Shown here piece after piece: positions 4,954 to 61,788 of a stretch of 64,000 bases of DNA. The DNA is from Rubrobacter tropicus (GTDB lineage Bacteria > Actinomycetota > Rubrobacteria > Rubrobacterales > Rubrobacteraceae), in contig NZ_CP045119.1 of assembly GCF_011492945.1 (NCBI RefSeq), forward strand, positions 372,001 through 436,000, in the 5' to 3' direction. A program made the translations under genes and the position numbers. Every line of letters begins with the position of its first letter. The stretch's first letter is position 1. The notes under the pieces are model-generated. The model was not told the origin of the DNA, did not search any database, and saw only the letters and a list, made by a program, of their open reading frames with translations.

Positions 4954-5901
4954 CTACTCTACGAAGCCCTTCTCGGAGAGAAAGTCTTCGGCCACGTCCT
5001 CGGGGAGCTCGCCGTCGACGTCCACCCTGGCGTTCATCTCGGTCATCGTCTTGGCGTCGAGCGCCTTGGCGATGGGGGTGAAGATCTCCTCGAGCTGGGG
5101 CCCGTACTGGTCGAAGGTCTCCTTGCGGACCTCCAGGGCCGGGTTGTACTTGGGGAAGAAGTTCTTGTCGTCCTCGATGGCCGTCAGGCCGAGGGCCTCG
5201 ATGCGGCCGTCGGTGGTGAAGACCTCGCCGAAGTTGCAGGGGTCGCCCTTGTCCGTGCGCTGGTAGACCGTGCCGGTGTCGAAGAGGGCGACGTTGCCCT
5301 TCGGGAACTGGAAGCCGTACTCTTTCTCCAGGCCGGGCAGGCCGTCGTCGCGCGAGTTGAACTCGCTCTCGACGCAGACCGTCGCCTCGTCCGGGTTCTC
5401 TTCCACGAGTGTCTTGAGGTCGGAGAGCTTCTCGACGCCCACGTCTTCGGCCGCCTCCTCGCGGATGGCGAGCGCGTAGGTGTTGTTGAACGGGGCCGGT
5501 TCGAGGAGCTTCAGGTTCTCCTGCTCCATGTCCGCCTTCGCGGCGGCCTCGTACTGCTTCTTGCTGTCGGGGATGGGCTTCGTGTTGCCGAGGTGGTTGA
5601 TCCAGATAGTGCCCGTGTACTCCCAGTACATGTCTATGTCGCCGCCGACGAGCGCCTGGCGGGCCGCGTCGGTGCCCGCGAGGCCCACCTGGTCCTCCAC
5701 GTTCGCCCCGGCGTTCTCGAGCGCCTGGAGGGTGATGTAGCCGAGGATCAACTGCTCGGTAAAGTCCTTGGAGCCGACCACCAGGTCCGCGTCCGAGAGG
5801 TCCACGTCCCCGCTCGCCCCGCCGCCGCCACCGCCGCAACCGACGGCGACCATCGCCGCCACGACCAGCACGCCAACCATCCGAAACACGGCTCTGTTCA
5901 C
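4954..5901 (-). CDS. Glycine betaine/choline-type ABC transporter substrate-binding lipoprotein
   Basis: The GTG at 5901 has GGGAGG 8 bases upstream and directly gives a lipoprotein signal (VGVLVVAAMVAVGC) followed by a Gly linker. This is better than the ORF start at 5946, which lies inside the permease end. The mature part has the OpuAC/ProX fold signatures: DLVVGSKDFTEQLILGYI, ALVGGDIDMYWEYTGTIW and PAPFNNTYALAIRE. It captures a compatible solute (betaine, choline, carnitine or similar) outside the membrane for the two permeases encoded upstream. It is the last gene of a four-gene operon. Confidence 0.92.
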   Translation of the reverse strand: MNRAVFRMVGVLVVAAMVAVGCGGGGGGASGDVDLSDADLVVGSKDFTEQLILGYITLQALENAGANVEDQVGLAGTDAARQALVGGDIDMYWEYTGTIWINHLGNTKPIPDSKKQYEAAAKADMEQENLKLLEPAPFNNTYALAIREEAAEDVGVEKLSDLKTLVEENPDEATVCVESEFNSRDDGLPGLEKEYGFQFPKGNVALFDTGTVYQRTDKGDPCNFGEVFTTDGRIEALGLTAIEDDKNFFPKYNPALEVRKETFDQYGPQLEEIFTPIAKALDAKTMTEMNARVDVDGELPEDVAEDFLSEKGFVE

Positions 5902-5942
5902 TAAACGATCCTCCCTGTAGGGTTTGCTCTCCATCGGCCCGC

Positions 5943-6770
5943 TCACAGGCCCTTCGGTCTCAAGACGTCCTCGGCTATGCCGGCCAAATAGTCTATGGCC
6001 AGGGCCAGCACGGCGGTGAGGATGGAGCCCGTGATGAGTATCGGCTCGCGGCTCGTCTTGATCCCGGTGTTGATGATGTCGCCCATCCCGCCCGCGTTGA
6101 TAAAAGTCGCGAGCGTCGCCGTGCCGACGACTATGATCAGGGCGGTCCTGATGCCGGCGAGCATGATGGGCACGGCGAGCGGCAGCTCTATCCTGAAGAG
6201 CACCGCTGTCTTGGTCATGCCCATCCCGCGGGCCGACTCGATGGTCGGGCGGTCCACCTGCCTTATGCCGACCATCGTGTTCCCGAGCACGGGCAAAAAG
6301 GCGTAGAGCACGAGCCCGAAGACCGCCGCCCTGAAGCCGAACTGGTCGAAGAGGATGGCTATGAGTATGAGGACGCCTATGGACGGTATCGCCTGACCCG
6401 TGCTCGCCAGCGCGGCGACGTAGGGCGACACCTTGCGGAAGGCCGGGCGCGTCAGGACCACGCCCGTGGCCACGGCAAGCACCACGACGACCAGCGTGGC
6501 GACGGCGGTGATCTCAAGGTGCCGCACGACGCTGCGCAGGATGACGTCGCTGTTTATGGAGCGCCGCTCGATGCTGTCGAGGTCCAGGGTGCCGAGCCAC
6601 ACGTACAGCCCCGCGCAGACGGCCACGAGAAAGACCGGCATGACCAGGTAGCGCGCGAGCGTCCTCCCGAGGCCGGCCCCGCCCGCCTTACTAGCAGGCC
6701 CGGGCGTCCGCGGGGTCTCTGAAACCCCGCCCGGGGGTGCGGTCTCCCGCCTCTCCTCGGTGCCCCTCAC
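5943..6770 (-). CDS. OpuC/OsmF-type ABC transporter permease
   Basis: A 275-residue membrane protein with a Pro/Gly-rich cytoplasmic N-terminus and about six membrane segments. It carries the EAA-type coupling loop ESARGMGMTKTAVLFRIELPLAVPIMLAGIR. The GTG start at 6770 overlaps the ATPase stop as GTGA. Larger open frames here are shadows of the ATPase gene. With the second permease it forms the channel of an osmolyte importer; members of this group usually occur as two unlike permeases around one ATPase, as here. Confidence 0.9.
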   Translation of the reverse strand: MRGTEERRETAPPGGVSETPRTPGPASKAGGAGLGRTLARYLVMPVFLVAVCAGLYVWLGTLDLDSIERRSINSDVILRSVVRHLEITAVATLVVVVLAVATGVVLTRPAFRKVSPYVAALASTGQAIPSIGVLILIAILFDQFGFRAAVFGLVLYAFLPVLGNTMVGIRQVDRPTIESARGMGMTKTAVLFRIELPLAVPIMLAGIRTALIIVVGTATLATFINAGGMGDIINTGIKTSREPILITGSILTAVLALAIDYLAGIAEDVLRPKGL

Positions 6771-7900
6771 GCGCCCCCGCCCACGCGGTGCTCCTCCGGC
6801 CTCATCTCCTCGATGGCCTGCAGGACCGTCCCGAAGTCGACGACGCTCTCGTAGCGCCCCTCGTCGTCGACGACTATGGCCGAGCCCTTGTATGAGGTGA
6901 TCATGGTGTCCAGCGTCTCGTAGAGGCTGGACTTGCCTTCCACGATCGCCACGGCGGGCCACCCGGCGTTCCTGAGCGGGGCGCCGTCCATCTCGAGCTC
7001 CGCGACGCCCACCCAGCGCTTGGGCTTGCGCCCCTCGTCCAGCAGGAGCACGTAGTCCTTGCCCGACCTCTTCAGCGTCTGGAGCACCTCTTCGTGGCTG
7101 TCGGTGAGGCTCGCGACGGGCCACTCGCTCGTCTTTATGTCCCGAACCCGGCTTAAAGACAGGCGCTTCAAAGAAGCCCCCGCCCCTATAAAGTCCTCGA
7201 CGTAGGCGTCTGCCGGGTCGGTGAGGATGCGCTCGGGGGTGTCGTACTGGGCTATAATGGACTGTTCGCGCAGGATCGCTATCCTGTCGCCCATCTTTAT
7301 GGCCTCGTCGATGTCGTGGGTGACGAAGACTATGGTCTTCTGGATCTCTTCTTGAAGCCGCAGGAATTCGTCCTGGAGCCGCTCGCGGGTTATGGGGTCG
7401 ACGGCCCCGAAGGGCTCGTCCATGAGCATGATCGGCGGGTCCGCCGCCATCGCCCGCGCGACGCCCACCCTCTGTCGCTGGCCGCCGGAGAGCTCCTTCG
7501 GGAAACGGTCCCTGTAGGACTTGTCCATGCCGACGGTCTCCAGCAACTCGTCCGTGCGTTCGGCTATGCGCCTCTTGTCCCAGCCGAGCATCTTGGGGAC
7601 GGTGGCGATGTTGTCGGCGATGGTCATGTGGGGGAAGAGGCCGATCTGCTGGATCACGTACCCGATGCGCCGCCTTAGCCTGTCAGGGTTTGTCCTCGTC
7701 ACGTCCTCGCCGCCGATGATGATCCTGCCGCCCGAGGGCTCGATGATGCGGTTGATCATCTTCATCGTCGTGGTCTTTCCGCAACCGCTGGGTCCGACGA
7801 AGACGACGATCTCGCCCTCGTGGATGTCCATGGTCAGCTCGTCCACGGCGGGCTCGGACTGCCCCGGGAAGGTCTTGGAGAGCTTCTCCAGCCGGATCAT
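6767..7900 (-). CDS. OpuC/OsmF-type ABC transporter ATPase with CBS domains
   Basis: About 377 residues. The ABC domain has Walker A GPSGCGKTT, signature LSGGQRQRV, Walker B LMDEPFGAVDP and the switch His in FVTHD. The C-terminal ~120 residues form a CBS pair, which in OpuA-type importers senses ionic strength or nucleotides. The ATG at 7900 fits MIRLEKLSKTFPG of relatives. A TTG at 7939 overlapping the permease stop as TTGA is an alternative that adds 13 residues and would mirror the GTGA coupling at the other end. Energises uptake through the flanking permeases. Confidence 0.9.
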   Translation of the reverse strand: MIRLEKLSKTFPGQSEPAVDELTMDIHEGEIVVFVGPSGCGKTTTMKMINRIIEPSGGRIIIGGEDVTRTNPDRLRRRIGYVIQQIGLFPHMTIADNIATVPKMLGWDKRRIAERTDELLETVGMDKSYRDRFPKELSGGQRQRVGVARAMAADPPIMLMDEPFGAVDPITRERLQDEFLRLQEEIQKTIVFVTHDIDEAIKMGDRIAILREQSIIAQYDTPERILTDPADAYVEDFIGAGASLKRLSLSRVRDIKTSEWPVASLTDSHEEVLQTLKRSGKDYVLLLDEGRKPKRWVGVAELEMDGAPLRNAGWPAVAIVEGKSSLYETLDTMITSYKGSAIVVDDEGRYESVVDFGTVLQAIEEMRPEEHRVGGGA

Positions 7901-7935
7901 GGCCTCCGACCCCTGATTACTTCGTTCTTCGTCTT

Positions 7936-8595
7936 TCAACCCAACCCCCTTGAAGTGGTCAACCTGCCGAGAACCGCGAACAACACCTCGAAGACGAGTG
8001 CCAGGATGACGATCCCAAGCACCCCTCCGAGCACCAGGTTCAGCGAGTTGGCGCCGCCGATGCGGCTGAGGCCGGAGAAGATGTCCCCGCCGAGCCCCGG
8101 CCCGTTGACGTACGCCGCTATCGCCGCGATGCCGAGAATGAGCAGCGCCGAGACCCGGATGCCGGCGATGATCACCGGCCACGCGAGCGGCATCTCTATC
8201 TTGAAGAGCACCTGCCACTCGCTGAGGCCCATCCCCTTGGCCGACTCCGTGACGGCCGGGTCGACGGACTGCAGGCCGGTTATGGTGTTCCTCAAGATGG
8301 AGAGCACCGCGTAGGCCGAGAGCGCCACGACCGTCGGCGTGTACCCGAGCCCCATGAAAGGCAGGCTGAGCACGATTCCGAAGAGCGCGAACGACGGGAT
8401 GGTCAGTATGGCCGAGAAGACGGCCAGGACCACCTGCGCCGCCGCCGGACGCCGGTAGGTCAAGACGCCGAGGGAGACCCCGATCACGGTCGCTATGAAC
8501 AGCGACACGAGCACCACCTGCGCGTGCTCTATGGACAACTCCAACAGGTCGTCCCACCGCGAGGCGAGGTACTCGAAGAATCCCATGCTGTTCAT
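7936..8595 (-). CDS. OpuC/OsmF-type ABC transporter permease, first gene of operon
   Basis: A 219-residue integral membrane protein with six predicted helices and the coupling loop ESAKGMGLSEWQVLFKIEMPLAWPVIIAGIR. Length and motif are usual for OpuCB/OpuCD-type permeases. The start has two candidate ATGs three codons apart (8595, 8586) and only a weak GAGGCGG site. The order permease-ATPase-permease-binding protein, with overlapping starts and stops, defines one operon. It probably supplies osmoprotectant uptake in a desiccation- or salt-exposed organism (inference). Confidence 0.9.
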   Translation of the reverse strand: MNSMGFFEYLASRWDDLLELSIEHAQVVLVSLFIATVIGVSLGVLTYRRPAAAQVVLAVFSAILTIPSFALFGIVLSLPFMGLGYTPTVVALSAYAVLSILRNTITGLQSVDPAVTESAKGMGLSEWQVLFKIEMPLAWPVIIAGIRVSALLILGIAAIAAYVNGPGLGGDIFSGLSRIGGANSLNLVLGGVLGIVILALVFEVLFAVLGRLTTSRGLG

Positions 8596-9187
8596 GCCGC
8601 CGCCTCACGTGAGTAGCCGCGCATCACGTGTAACCATGCATAATCATTAGCACAACCTCTCTCGAAACGACTCCAGATAGTGCACGTCTCCACCGGCTCA
8701 TCCGGTGGCAGGCGCACGGTAATAATAGACATTTCTTGTTGCGGGCGCCACCGTCACGGTTTTGGCTTCCTTCCGGCGCGGGTCTTTGCGCGGCCTGCCA
8801 GGACGGGTTCGGGCCGCGCGGCATGCCCCCTCGAAGATGCAAAGCAAGCCACCAGCCGAGACATCCCGTCGCCTAATTGGCCAGCATCTCGGCCCGACGG
8901 TGGCGTCGCTTTGTTCCTCGGCATCTCCGGCTCCCCTCCAAATAAAGATCGATCCGTAGGAACCGTGGTTCCCGGATCACGCCGCGCCAGATCCTGTAAC
9001 TCTAATGGTTCGCGGCTGCGCCGGAAACCCAGGATAGGCTTTACTATCGTAAATGTGTCAAAGTATGTAAGCGATGGACCGCCGGAACCAACCCGCGGGG
9101 CGACTTCCTTACCCGGAGGGTCGTGAAGGTCGCAGCGTGCTGGAAGCCAGCGGCGCGCTGGGCGGGAGTTCACCCATTCCGATCGCT
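8596..9187. other. 590-bp non-coding stretch upstream of the OpuC-type operon
   Basis: No convincing gene: open frames here lack ribosome sites and protein-like composition. An AT-richer patch (about 8618-8650) is the likely promoter region for the minus-strand OpuC-type operon, though no clear hexamers stand out. One copy of the 19-bp motif is at 9051-9069. Confidence 0.5.
9051..9069 (+). promoter_or_regulatory. 19-bp motif copy 1
   Basis: AAATGTGTCAAAGTATGTA. It has two TGTGT-like half sites 10 bp apart in direct orientation. It is one of six copies between 9.05 and 11.58 kb, located between the OpuC-type operon and the 9188-9583 gene. Confidence 0.6.
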
Positions 9188-9583
9188 TCAGTTACGCGCG
9201 AGCCTCTCCTGCGACCTTACCGCGTGGCGCTCCGCGAAGCCGGCCAGGCTCAAGGTCACGAGGGCGATGGTCGCGTCGGACATGGAGCCAACCATCTCCG
9301 GCAACGGGTCCAGGGCCACGAGATCGACGCCCGCACGCTGGTACTCCGCGAGCCGCGAGACGAGCTCCCCGGCCGTGCTCTCGACGGCCAGCCAACCTTC
9401 TTTTTCCAATCCGCCGAGCCTCAGGAACATATCGGCTTCGTCCGGGAAGCTGAAGACCGGCAGCGCCTCTCTCTGGGCGCCTATACGGACTGTGAACGCA
9501 TCCGACCATTCGGCTTCGGGGTTCTCTATCAGCCAGTAAACGGTCGTCAGGTTCGGCGGCTGCGCCGTCTCATGCCTCAACAT
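9188..9583 (-). CDS. Hypothetical protein, 131 residues
   Basis: A soluble 131-residue protein with codon use like its neighbours. Visible segments are TTVYWLIENPEAEWSDAF, LPVFSFPDEADMFLRLGG and a GELVSRLAEYQRAGVDLVALDPLPEM region. This pattern resembles small alpha/beta proteins that read a value and map it to a site, but I cannot name the family. The upstream region (9584-9914) contains two copies of the 19-bp motif, so it may be controlled together with the divergent response regulator. Confidence 0.7.
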   Translation of the reverse strand: MLRHETAQPPNLTTVYWLIENPEAEWSDAFTVRIGAQREALPVFSFPDEADMFLRLGGLEKEGWLAVESTAGELVSRLAEYQRAGVDLVALDPLPEMVGSMSDATIALVTLSLAGFAERHAVRSQERLARN

Positions 9584-9731
9584 CTCCGACTCTCCTTCGC
9601 GTGGAGACCGATCCGCGAGAGCCTCACGAGGATCGCGCTTGCCCGGTCCCTATATCGCCGCAATGGGCACGAGCCGACAGCTTAATACACGGCCATTATC
9701 CCGGAAACCCCGGAAGGCCGCCTCGCACGGC

Positions 9732-9750
9732 AAATGTGTCGAAATGTGTA
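9732..9750 (+). promoter_or_regulatory. 19-bp motif copy 2
   Basis: AAATGTGTCGAAATGTGTA, about 165 bases upstream of the response regulator and 150 bases upstream of the divergent 9188-9583 gene. Confidence 0.6.
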
Positions 9751-9792
9751 GACGAGGCCACTGCGGGGGCCTGGAAGAGTACGGACGTAGAC

Positions 9793-9811
9793 TACATACT
9801 AAGACACACGT
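9793..9811 (-). promoter_or_regulatory. 19-bp motif copy 3 (diverged)
   Basis: On the minus strand ACGTGTGTCTTAGTATGTA, 15 of 19 positions as in copy 1; inverted relative to copy 2. Confidence 0.45.
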
Positions 9812-9914
9812 AAAATGCGCAAACAGTCTGGCGTCGTGGACGTTCGGCGCGAACGCGTGGGAAGGACCCGTTACTTTGGGGATGTCTGCAATCTTCGATA
9901 GGTTCAAATAGACG

Positions 9915-10617
9915 ATGGACGGCCGGCCGACGACGGTGCTACTGGCGGACGACCACACCATGTTCCGCGAGGGGCTGGCGCAGCTCTTGACCGCCTACGG
10001 GGGGCTCGAGGTCGTCGGCGAGACCACCAACGACGATGGCGCCGTCGACCTCGCCCGCGAGAAGAAGCCCGACGTGGTCATCATGCAGGTGCAGATGCCC
10101 TTCGAGAAGGCCAGGGAGTCCCTCGACAGGATGCGCGAGGTCGAGCCGGCGCCCAAGGTCATCGTCCGTGACCATGTTCGAGGACCCCGAGATGATGCGG
10201 ACCTTCTTGAGGCTTGGGGCCAGCGGATACGTGCTCAAGAGCTCCTCCACGACCCAGCTCGTGAGCGCGATCCGCGCCGCCGCCTTCGCCCCCGAGGACG
10301 GCAACGTGGTGGTGGGCATGCCAAGGACGATGTTGGAGGAGTCGGAGGGCGGTTCCGAAGGCTTGCTCTCGGTGCGGGAGCTCGAGATCCTGCTGCTCGC
10401 GGCACGGGGCCTCTCCAATCGCCAGATAGCCAGCCGGGTGCACCTGGCGGAGGGGACCGTCAAGCGCCACCTCTCGAACACCTACAACAAGATGGGGGTG
10501 GGATCTCGGGGCGAGGCAGCGAGAAAGGCGCTGCAGGAGGAGTGGATCACCGTCAGCGAGATCACGGACTACGAGCCCTCCGACGAGGACGGGCAGCCCG
10601 GAGGCCGGCCGGGTTAG
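9915..10617 (+). pseudogene. NarL/LuxR-type response regulator, frameshifted and lacking the phospho-acceptor Asp
   Basis: The frame from the ATG at 9915 encodes a receiver start (VLLADDHTMFREGLAQLL, PDVVIMQVQMP). At about 10165-10172 the reading shifts: the receiver remainder (TMFEDPEMMRTFLRLGASGYVLK) and a complete LuxR helix-turn-helix (LLSVRELEILLLAARGLSNRQIASRV..TVKRHL) continue in another frame to the TAG at 10617. Removing one C from the GTCCGTGACC run restores a normal ~233-residue regulator. The conserved phospho-acceptor Asp is replaced by Gln (codon 10086-10088). It could be a decayed gene, a sequencing error, or a phosphorylation-independent regulator. It probably acted on the 19-bp motif (inference). 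Confidence 0.8.
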
Positions 10618-10961
10618 TCCACCGGCTCCGTGGAGATGAACTCCTCCACCTCGTCCAGGACCGCGAGCAAGTCCGCCACGCCCATGTCTTTTATCTCCCT
10701 GACCCGGCCGTCCAGGTTGACCCTGACGTCCATCCCGTCGCTGAACAGCACCTCGATCCGGCACGCGATGCCGACGAAGTCTTCCGGCGAGAGGCCGTCG
10801 TTGTCGTTGCGCACGAGCAGGTCGGGCGCGAAGTCCCGCACCTGCCCGTCGAGGGAGTCCGCAGAGGCTATCATCACCTCGGCGTCGGGACGGTGCTCGT
10901 GCAGGGCCAGCGCCAGCGTCTCGCGGTACATCTTGGGTTTTACGGTGACGAGTATGCGCAC
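10614..10961 (-). CDS. Small receiver-like protein, 115 residues
   Basis: The GTG at 10961 has AGGAG 9 bases upstream; a longer frame to 11171 has no support and runs through motif sites. The product starts VRILVTVKPKMYRETLALALHEHRPDAEVMIA, like the first strand and helix of a response-regulator receiver, and continues through DFAPDLLVRNDNDGLSP. A phospho-acceptor is not obvious. It overlaps the end of the response-regulator gene by 4 bases, tail to tail. Two motif copies in inverted orientation lie 120-215 bases upstream. It may be a partner or antagonist of the regulator; the function is unknown. Confidence 0.7.
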   Translation of the reverse strand: MRILVTVKPKMYRETLALALHEHRPDAEVMIASADSLDGQVRDFAPDLLVRNDNDGLSPEDFVGIACRIEVLFSDGMDVRVNLDGRVREIKDMGVADLLAVLDEVEEFISTEPVD

Positions 10962-11081
10962 TCCCGCACGCTCCTGACTCGCGGGAAACCAGATACGAAA
11001 CGATACGCACAAGAGCGGCCCACAAATAGCTGTGAGTGCACTATACACCCGTCGCCGGAGGATTGGGACGGCCGCGACGCA

Positions 11082-11100
11082 TAATGTGTGAAAGTGTGTA
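11082..11100 (+). promoter_or_regulatory. 19-bp motif copy 4
   Basis: TAATGTGTGAAAGTGTGTA followed by GCGGG. With copy 5 it forms an inverted pair with 23 of about 25 bases complementary, separated by roughly 50 bases. Confidence 0.6.
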
Positions 11101-11156
11101 GCGGGCGTTTCGTATCCCGGGTGCCGGCTCCGCCGTGAACCGTGCGGACCTCCCGC

Positions 11157-11175
11157 TACACACTTCGACACATTT
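11157..11175 (-). promoter_or_regulatory. 19-bp motif copy 5
   Basis: On the minus strand AAATGTGTCGAAGTGTGTA followed by GCGGG; the inverted partner of copy 4. Both are upstream of the 10614-10961 gene. Confidence 0.6.
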
Positions 11176-11559
11176 CCTATATGTAGGGATCGAAATCACT
11201 ACCGGGAGGGTCAGGGTGAGGCTATATTCGCGCGCGTCCACCCATCCTCGAATACAGGAGCGCGACCGGATGCTTGAGCGGGGCGGAGAAGGCGGACGGC
11301 GTTCGGGCGGTCCCGTTGCCAGCCGCGGGGACTCCCTCGAGTGGGCCCGCTCCGGAAATCGGACGAGGCTGGTGAAGCTCCTGAACCTCGTCAGGACCGA
11401 GATGCTCTTCGACATCGACTCCTCCGATGGACCGTGGTTGAACCGCAACCGGGTATCGAGAGCAGACGCCACGCCCAGCCCGAAACGCGCCGTCTGAAGA
11501 CTTGACTGCGGCGCCCTCTCACATCCGGAGTCACCGTCTGCTTTTCGAGTCGTCCGTTT

Positions 11560-11578
11560 TGCATACTTTGACACATTT
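11560..11578 (-). promoter_or_regulatory. 19-bp motif copy 6
   Basis: On the minus strand AAATGTGTCAAAGTATGCA, differing from copy 1 at one position; about 215 bases upstream of the desaturase ATG. Confidence 0.6.
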
Positions 11579-11791
11579 TTGGTTCGTATCTGCCGAATCG
11601 GGCCCGGAGGAGCCGCCAGGAGGGTATGCTCATCTCCATTGTTCGGCGTCTGACCTTCCTTCTTTCCCCATCTCACCCACCCAGGCGCCGGGCGTCACCG
11701 GAAAGAGGGTCGAGGACAGGCTTCGAGAGACCCAATCGAACTCCACACAGAGCCGCCGGACAGTCGCCCCGGCCGGAAAGGAATACGACGT

Positions 11792-12859
11792 ATGAGACCA
11801 GACGTTTCGCCCTCCGCCGAGATGCCGGACCCGTCCGGCCGGCGTCAAGAAGTCAACCTTTACGCCGAGTTAAAGCGGATCGTCAAGAAGGACGGGCTGC
11901 TCGAACGTCAGCCGGCCTACTACGCGGGCAAGACCGCCCTCACCCTGGGCCTGCTGGCGGTGGGCCTTGCCTTGTTGTTCGTCTTCGACGACCTCTGGTT
12001 TCAGCTCTTGAACGCCGTATATCTGGCGTTTGTGTTCGTCCAGATCAGCCTGCTCGCCCACGACTTCGGGCACCGGCAGTTCACCTTCCGCTCCGCGCGG
12101 AAGAACGACTGGCTTACCCTCGTCTTCGGCAACCTGCTGCTCGGCGTGAGCCGCCAGTGGTGGATAGACAAGCACAACGAGCACCACGGCCACCCCAACC
12201 AGGTCGACGTGGACCCGGACGTGGACATCCCGCTGCTCGCCTTCGACGAGGACCAGGCGATGGACAAGAGGGGCATCGCGCGGTTCGTCGTCAAGTACCA
12301 GGCGGCCCTGATCTTCCCCCTCTCCTTTCTCCAGGCGTTGAGCATGCACCGCAGCAGCGTCGAGTTCCTGGCCTCGGGCAAGGCGAAGAGCACGCTGGTC
12401 GAGGCGCTCGTGATCCTGGCCCACTTCGCCCTCTATTTTGGCCTGCTGTTCTCCGTGCTGGAACCCCTGACGGCCGTGCTGTTCGTCGTCGTCCATCGCG
12501 GGCTCTTTGGCGTCTACATGGTCTCCATCTTCGCCCCCAACCACAAGGCGATGCCCCTGCTGGAGCAGGACAGCCGGGTCGATTTCCTGCACCGTCAGGT
12601 CCTGACCAGCCGCAACGTCCTCTCCCACCCGATCACGGACTTCTGGTACGGGGGTCTCAACTACCAGATAGAGCACCACCTCTTCCCGAGGCTGCCCCGC
12701 AACAAGCTCAAGGAGGCGCAGCCGATCATCAAAGACTTCTGCCGGAAGCACGAGATCCCGTTCCACGAGACGAGCGTGCTCCAGTCCTACCGTGAGATCC
12801 TGAGCCACCTCCACGAGGTCGGCTCCCCCCTCCGCAAACCCCGGCGCACCAGCCCGTAA
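11792..12859 (+). CDS. Membrane fatty-acid desaturase
   Basis: A 355-residue membrane enzyme with the three histidine boxes of the front-end/acyl-lipid desaturase superfamily: HDFGH (about residue 90), HNEHHGHP (about 128) and QIEHHLFP (about 290). Hydrophobic pairs lie between the boxes. The diiron centre held by these histidines introduces a double bond into an acyl chain at the membrane. The QxxHH third box points to the linoleoyl-CoA/delta-6-like subfamily rather than delta-9, but regiochemistry cannot be read. The ATG at 11792 follows GGAAAGGAA. A motif copy upstream suggests shared control with the regulator locus. Confidence 0.9.
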   Translation: MRPDVSPSAEMPDPSGRRQEVNLYAELKRIVKKDGLLERQPAYYAGKTALTLGLLAVGLALLFVFDDLWFQLLNAVYLAFVFVQISLLAHDFGHRQFTFRSARKNDWLTLVFGNLLLGVSRQWWIDKHNEHHGHPNQVDVDPDVDIPLLAFDEDQAMDKRGIARFVVKYQAALIFPLSFLQALSMHRSSVEFLASGKAKSTLVEALVILAHFALYFGLLFSVLEPLTAVLFVVVHRGLFGVYMVSIFAPNHKAMPLLEQDSRVDFLHRQVLTSRNVLSHPITDFWYGGLNYQIEHHLFPRLPRNKLKEAQPIIKDFCRKHEIPFHETSVLQSYREILSHLHEVGSPLRKPRRTSP

Positions 12860-60719: not shown

Positions 60720-60810
60720 GGATGCTGCCGTTGGTTTGCGGAGCACACACCTCGACACGGTTCGAGACTGGCGCGAGAAGAAGCGTGGCGGCTAATATGC
60801 TTGCACGTTG

Positions 60811-61788
60811 ATGGGTGATGGGATAGACGGCTACGCGGAGCGTTTCGCCCGGCTAAGGACCAACAGGAACCGAAAGGGGTGGTCCGGGGTCACGGCACAC
60901 CAGGCTCCGCACAAACCGCTCCTGCTTCTCTGCGTTTTGGATCTTTTTGAATCCGGCAAGGTCTTCTCGAACCTCGTCGAGATCACGGACGATCTTGCGG
61001 AATTGTTCGGTCGGTACTGGGAGCGCGTCCTGCCTTTCGGCCGTTCGGGCAACCTCGCGCTGCCCTTCTTTCACTTGCAGAGTGATGGCTTCTGGCACCT
61101 GCTACCGAAGCACGAGGACGCCCGGATCGGCCCGCAGATCTCGTCGCTGTCCCGGCTCCAGGAAGAGGTCCTCGGGGCTCGTCTGGACGAGGACCTCTAC
61201 GACTTTGTCCTAATAAAAGAGTACCGCGACCGGCTACGAAGCGTCCTGATCGAGACTTACTTCTCTTCAGAAACTAGAAGCATCGTCTTGGAACAGAGCT
61301 TCATCAATCGCGGCGCCTTCGTCTACAGCGAGGAGTTGCTGAAACATCCCGAAGATCCCAGAGTGAAAGAGGCGCTGCCCGTCGAGGAGGCGTACCGTCC
61401 CGCCGTCCGCGACCAGGGTTTCAGGCGCGCCGTCGTGACCGCGTACCGCCACCGTTGCGCCCTGTGCGGCATCCGCGTCCGCACGCTCGACGGGCACACG
61501 GCCGTCGCGGCGGCGCACATCGTCCCGTGGAGCGAGACGCGGGACGACCGGCCTGCCAACGGCATGGCTCTCTGTCGGATGTGCCACTGGGTGTTCGACG
61601 AGGGGCTCATGTGGGTGTCGTCGGGGTACGAGATCTCGGCTTCCCCCCAACTGACCACCTCCGCCAACCTTCCCGGTTATCTGACCAACCTCGAAGGGCG
61701 CGGTATCGTGGGCCCCTCGCAAAAACCCTTCTGGCCGGACATCGAGTCGCTGCGGTGGCATCATGAGAACGTATTCCGTGCGAGATAG
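60811..61788 (+). CDS. HNH endonuclease with unknown N-terminal domain
   Basis: 325 residues from the ATG at 60811. C-terminal HNH nuclease (about 200-320): RRAVVTAYRHRCALCGIRVRTLDGHTAVAAAHIVPWSETRDDRPANGMALCRMCHWVFDEGLMWVS, with Cys pairs holding structural Zn and AAHI as the first His. The N-terminal ~190 residues (APHKPLLLLCVLDLFESGKV, LPFFHLQSDGFWHLLP) form a domain found in similar putative restriction nucleases. Could be a modification-dependent restriction enzyme. No methyltransferase nearby. Two bases separate its stop from the convergent polymerase gene. Confidence 0.88.
   Translation: MGDGIDGYAERFARLRTNRNRKGWSGVTAHQAPHKPLLLLCVLDLFESGKVFSNLVEITDDLAELFGRYWERVLPFGRSGNLALPFFHLQSDGFWHLLPKHEDARIGPQISSLSRLQEEVLGARLDEDLYDFVLIKEYRDRLRSVLIETYFSSETRSIVLEQSFINRGAFVYSEELLKHPEDPRVKEALPVEEAYRPAVRDQGFRRAVVTAYRHRCALCGIRVRTLDGHTAVAAAHIVPWSETRDDRPANGMALCRMCHWVFDEGLMWVSSGYEISASPQLTTSANLPGYLTNLEGRGIVGPSQKPFWPDIESLRWHHENVFRAR

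Follow-up and report, generated by a model that had tools for sequence, protein, structure and literature searches.

We propose that a 19-bp motif, present in six copies within 2.5 kb of the Rubrobacter tropicus genome, is the predicted operator of an orphan NarL-family response regulator (RR) encoded in the middle of the cluster. The RR would act as a class I activator and probably independently of phosphorylation; we put the probability of this reading, which was derived from sequence comparison, at roughly three in four. The sites, their orientation, their phasing relative to promoters, their conservation, their co-occurrence with the RR and the missing phospho-accepting Asp of the latter were all computed. 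Coordinates refer to the window (the whole stretch of 64,000 nucleotides that was analysed), unless the genome is named.

The six sites and their predicted promoters

An earlier note on this DNA had described six intergenic copies of the motif, and all of them were located at the positions and on the strands claimed, around the RR gene, with none of the six (0/6) overlapping a called gene. Five copies have up to 3 mismatches to AAATGTGTCAAAGTATGTA, versus 0 expected from 100 dinucleotide shuffles. The sixth (9793-9811, - strand) has 4 mismatches and is the weakest, with a leave-one-out score of 18.3 bits versus 24.7-31.9 bits for the other five. The consensus built on 28 related sites is AAATGTGTCGAAGTGTGTA. 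Its best self-match is a direct repeat at a 10-bp offset, every inverted register scoring lower, which bears out the earlier description of half-sites in direct orientation 10 bp apart. The flanks of the copies are unrelated, and the 19 bp alone are common to them.

When written as TACAYACTTYGACACATTT, the site points toward the gene that it precedes. Hexamers resembling a -10 element pile up 35-36 and 46-48 nt downstream of the sites, i.e. one helical turn apart. For sites selected by the position weight matrix (PWM), 29 such hexamers were found at the phased downstream positions versus 1 on the opposite side, while 45 of 72 pattern-selected sites have one 34-37 or 45-49 nt downstream and 10 have one on the other side; p-values attached to these counts are indicative only, because the sites share part of their ancestry and the data had already been inspected when the helical period was picked. 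Several promoters of the 47-nt class contain a TTG- or TTTCC-type -35 element about 24 nt past the site. The centre of the site then falls near -57 or -67, as in class I promoters. Located upstream of the -35 element, in a fixed orientation and at helically phased distances from the -10 element, the sites are arranged like those of class I activators.

Site 1 (9051-9069, +; 33.8 bits by PWM), read on the - strand, points to a glycine-betaine-type ABC operon (start at 8595), which corrects the earlier list of targets; the -10-like TAGAGT (8999-9004, -) lies 46 nt downstream. Site 2 (9732-9750, +; 30.6 bits) points to a gene for a 131-aa conserved hypothetical protein (9188-9583, -) and is followed after 44 nt by the -10-like TATTAA (9682-9687, -); the TTTCCGG stretch in the -35 region after this site recurs in relatives. 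Site 3, the weakest copy, points to the RR gene and is without a phased -10. Site 4 (11082-11100, +; 29.2 bits) points to a gene for a small receiver-like protein (the pseudo-receiver), with the -10 element TATAGT (extended: TGTATAGT; 11040-11045, -) 36 nt downstream. Site 5 (11157-11175, -; 31.8 bits) points to the right, to an ORF of 75 aa (11270-11497, +; an uncertain gene) upstream of a fatty-acid desaturase gene, and has the -10 element TATATT (11223-11228, +) 47 nt downstream. Site 6 (11560-11578, -; 31.2 bits) points to the desaturase gene itself (11792-12859, +; start at 11792 or 11822; Pfam FA_desaturase, 3.8e-37), with a weak -10-like hexamer, TATGCT (11625-11630, +), 46 nt downstream. 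A weaker intergenic match at 60744-60762 (-; 15.3 bits), which may or may not be a true site, points to the gene at 60811; TAATAT/TATGCT is found 30-33 nt downstream of it, slightly out of register with the -10-like hexamers of the other sites.

Sites 4 and 5 had been described as an extended inverted pair. They are two sites placed back to back, serving divergent promoters. The reading of the pair as one palindromic element was rejected: depending on the genome, about 57 to 101 bp separate them, with no helical phasing, and a promoter of its own leads outward from each half. When nine pseudo-receiver promoters, from 9 genomes, are aligned, the site is followed by a spacer that varies and then by an extended -10 element, in which the G-GTA--T columns are invariant.

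Two leader regions were also observed. Several genomes share a conserved block, AGCTATYTGTGGGCSGCTTT, in the pseudo-receiver leader, immediately past the predicted start site (in the window at 10995-11035, - strand); it has no Rfam match and might serve as a second operator or belong to an RNA element. The betaine-type transporter operon is preceded by a leader of about 400 nt, counted from the predicted start site (8596-8999), again with no Rfam match. An Rfam scan of positions 8400-12000 for leader RNAs gave no match.

Occurrence in relatives and target genes

The genome was searched with patterns allowing up to 3 mismatches, instead of a full matrix scan. At no more than 1 mismatch, the degenerate consensus has 9 matches in the 4.58-Mb genome, versus 1 for the reversed pattern, and 5 of the 9 fall in the 2.5-kb stretch (6 there if the weak copy, with 3 mismatches, is counted); at 3 mismatches the matches are near background (29 versus 17 for the control). 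Three to four further good copies are present beyond the window: (i) at genome position 972182, before an acyl-CoA dehydrogenase gene beside the PHA-synthase operon, (ii) as a pair at 2379314/2379338, between a ferritin-like gene and an ECF sigma factor gene, and (iii) at 11966, at a small protein without a Pfam match.

In 39 Rubrobacteraceae genomes, 70 matches with at most 1 mismatch were found versus 5 for the reversed pattern, which is a conservative control, as true sites are in part matched by the backward motif too. The motif recurs across the family beside orthologues of the local RR, and of the sites counted as distinct (72, four of them from outside Rubrobacteraceae) 71 lie outside called ORFs, as defined by a gene caller whose training covered few genomes and which may overlook genes in relatives. 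Neither of the two outcomes that the earlier note had set against its proposal, i.e. hits spread inside coding sequences or absence of the motif near orthologous loci, was therefore observed. A variant, ATGGGYCGAARTRTGYA, also recurs in relatives (L158, L160, L166 and others) and is possibly the operator of a paralogous regulator.

Clustering of the genes to which the sites point yielded the list of targets. The pseudo-receiver gene is the most conserved of them (13 loci, most with the site at 123-127 bp from the start codon), followed by the gene for the 131-aa protein (5 loci; 110-160 bp from the start), acyl-CoA dehydrogenase (4 loci), the fatty-acid desaturase (3 genomes) and a PRC-barrel gene (3 loci). 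The betaine-type ABC permease, an ECF sigma factor, a second desaturase-like family and a PhaC-like hydrolase are targets in 2 loci each. Counterparts of site 5 in relatives point to the desaturase or the PRC-barrel gene, and the site before the betaine-type ABC gene lies at a nearly equal distance in genome G003 and in the window (453 versus 456 bp). This ABC operon (4954-8595, -) encodes a permease, an ATPase, another permease and an OsmF-like binding protein. Its ATPase reaches the TIGR01186 cut-off, the permease at 7936-8595 and the binding protein match betaine-transport models below their cut-offs, and the second permease (5943-6641) was assigned from position and sequence only.

The earlier proposal of a local regulon holds in so far as the sites precede neighbouring genes, among them those of the pseudo-receiver, the hypothetical protein and the desaturase. 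It has to be widened to the distant sites at the acyl-CoA dehydrogenase gene (PHA operon) and the ECF sigma factor gene. Autoregulation of the RR through a site at its own promoter, which that proposal included, is weakly supported (the copy at 9793 and few relatives).

The pseudo-receiver (115 aa; 10614-10961, -) resembles the first half of a receiver domain without its acidic pair, and has Asn or another residue at the position of the Asp (alignment by eye). AlphaFold predicted an alpha/beta fold (pLDDT 82 for the best of five models), whose weak structural matches include receiver domains (PmrA, TM 0.68, E 0.055); on the strength of this model the protein is likely to be of receiver ancestry. 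In Rubrobacter marinus (L171, 4285-5302) two pseudo-receiver genes stand in tandem beside the regulator. The 131-aa protein resembles TTHA0547 (2z0r, E 1e-4), itself a hypothetical protein.

The regulator and its predicted mode of action

The presumed reader of the sites is a NarL/LuxR-type RR (9915-10617, +), in which a receiver is followed by a GerE/LuxR-type helix-turn-helix (HTH) domain, the arrangement of the NarL/FixJ family (Pfam Response_reg, 1.4e-12; GerE, 3.6e-17). The two domains are in two frames, owing to a shift by one base near 10168 (10160-10175). Both halves align at 80-83% to an intact orthologue in genome G004, which along its length gives sub-cut-off matches to the NarL, MadR and MctR models. 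The frameshift is either a sequencing error or a true mutation; accordingly, either the sequence is wrong here or the regulon has lost its gene. Broken copies of the RR also occur in G015 and G043, and the sites there persist.

Gln takes the place of the phospho-accepting Asp in the RR of the window and in every member of the motif-tracking clade that could be read. This clade keeps the upstream acidic pair and the Lys of the receiver, and most relatives at about 50% identity or less have Asp. As judged from these residues, the RR is an atypical NarL/FixJ member devoid of the phospho-accepting Asp. It is also an orphan: no HATPase_c domain was found within 40 kb, the nearest in the genome being 41 kb away. 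A paralogue of 50% identity at genome position 3172706 has HATPase_c encoded directly upstream. An inverted-repeat operator, usual but not universal for NarL/FixJ regulators, was not seen here, the site being a direct repeat with a 10-bp offset.

The link between the RR and the motif was examined at loci fetched by the RR protein of G004, not by the motif. Most loci with sites had an RR of this clade, and sites were rare at the others. Every RR orthologue of at least 66% identity, apart from one that a contig end cuts short, is accompanied by sites scoring 18 bits or more; the 29 other GerE loci scanned in the genome all stayed below 14 bits. In an independent named collection, sites were present at 12/18 loci of the RR clade versus 0/30 other RR loci. 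The motif occurs in 21 of 23 genomes with a Gln-type RR, versus 5 of 16 in which no Gln-type RR was detected; the five have one site each (some of these genomes are incomplete, and one site is in an ORF). On the tree the site label is clustered, yet spread beyond one clade. Some more divergent Gln-type RR loci have no recognisable site, and a few sites share a region with Asp-type or Gln-variant paralogues (G003, G004, G006).

A paralogous Asp-type NarL RR with a kinase elsewhere might bind the class I site, the Gln-type RR being its modulator or heterodimer partner, as WhiI is with BldM. The HTH domains of the two types are similar in sequence, some sites lie near other RRs (those in G003, G004 and G006), and in the window the local RR is frameshifted beside intact sites. 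We nevertheless consider this explanation unlikely, given that genomes with only Asp-type RRs mostly do not have the motif and that the other scanned GerE loci of the genome are without sites.

OmpR-type and CarH-type proteins, too, typically use direct repeats spaced by about one turn, and the earlier note had named a dimer of either a NarL/LuxR or an OmpR-type regulator. The first of these agrees with the NarL-type RR recurring beside the motif at orthologous loci; the OmpR reading was set aside, the linked regulator being of the GerE type, and no OmpR-type regulator linked to the sites was seen among the genes examined around the sites of the window. An unrelated regulator of this kind (e.g. 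MerR/CarH-like or OmpR-type), linked to the cluster by chance, is thus quite improbable; the position of the site upstream of the -35 element argues against a CarH-like repressor, and the spacing is 10 bp, not 11 bp.

Several near-identical copies in both orientations within a small region might bring to mind a dispersed repeat or mobile-element remnant devoid of a regulatory role, but the restriction of similarity to 19 bp, the preferred distance and orientation relative to phased promoters and the conservation at orthologous genes over genera leave this hardly tenable. It is equally hard to regard the site itself as a core promoter element, i.e. a -35-like TTGACA in reverse reading: TTTGACACA is present in some copies, but the -35-like position varies across them (TCGACA, TCGATA) and the -10 lies at 35 or 47 nt, not 17.

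For the predicted operator of the Gln-type RR, we infer binding, activation, signal and feedback as follows. Each of two 8-bp half-sites (ARTGTGTM type), which lie 10 bp apart and face the same side of the DNA, would be occupied by one RR protomer, the two being arranged head-to-tail. From this position upstream of the -35 element (site centre near -57 or -67) the bound protein would activate RNA polymerase in the class I manner. Since Gln occupies the phosphorylation position and no kinase is encoded nearby, the activity of the RR is probably set without phosphorylation. The pseudo-receiver may set this activity, and would thereby close a feedback loop. The outputs would comprise membrane desaturation, osmoprotectant uptake, PHA/fatty-acid metabolism and an ECF sigma factor. 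They suggest a response to envelope, osmotic or desiccation stress, and would form a predicted stress regulon of the Rubrobacteraceae, which are known for their tolerance of radiation and desiccation. The most specific form of this model is a kinase-free switch, in which the Gln-type RR, through the direct-repeat sites, activates the small stand-alone pseudo-receiver and the latter in turn controls the RR by binding to its receiver, so that a protein-protein feedback loop would replace the phosphorylation input to the membrane/osmotic-stress regulon of the family; this is a tentative idea, which we regard as possible but doubtful.

Comparison with known systems

Atypical orphan NarL-family regulators are known in actinobacteria: the phosphosite is missing in WhiI and RedZ, and phosphorylation is not required in BldM (PMC9739842). 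Like these and RamR, the RR described here is an orphan with a receiver and a LuxR/GerE-type HTH domain. It differs from them in its clade and targets, in the Gln at the phosphosite, in the 10-bp direct-repeat operator and in the linked, conserved pseudo-receiver gene.

ComA is phosphorylated by ComP. This NarL-family activator of Bacillus subtilis uses a direct repeat (TTGCGG-5 nt-TTGCGG) and acts from both class I and class II positions (PMC4797271). Direct repeats can therefore be used within the NarL family; ComA differs in its 11-bp repeat spacing and in having an inverted repeat as its canonical site, whereas no inverted site was seen here.

DesR of B. subtilis (NarL family) controls the des desaturase together with the kinase DesK. 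DesR shares with our RR the family (PDB 4ldz is among the profile hits) and a fatty-acid desaturase as a target (PMC3996569), but is activated by DesK, a thermosensor kinase, whereas the RR of the window has no kinase nearby, no phospho-Asp and a wider set of targets. The best solved relatives of the RR by sequence are of the VraR/LiaR type (VraR 4gvp, E 1.3e-34), canonical phosphorylated regulators of the cell-wall stress response.

The control of RRs that have no phosphorylation site has been called an open question (PMC12632262). A conserved natural system with a defined operator, target set and partner gene makes this control testable. In the literature searched we found no description of the regulon, nor of the combination of operator and regulon. 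Orphan atypical NarL RRs, direct-repeat binding and control of a desaturase by the NarL family are already known, and what is new, as far as that literature goes, is their combination with this operator and regulon.
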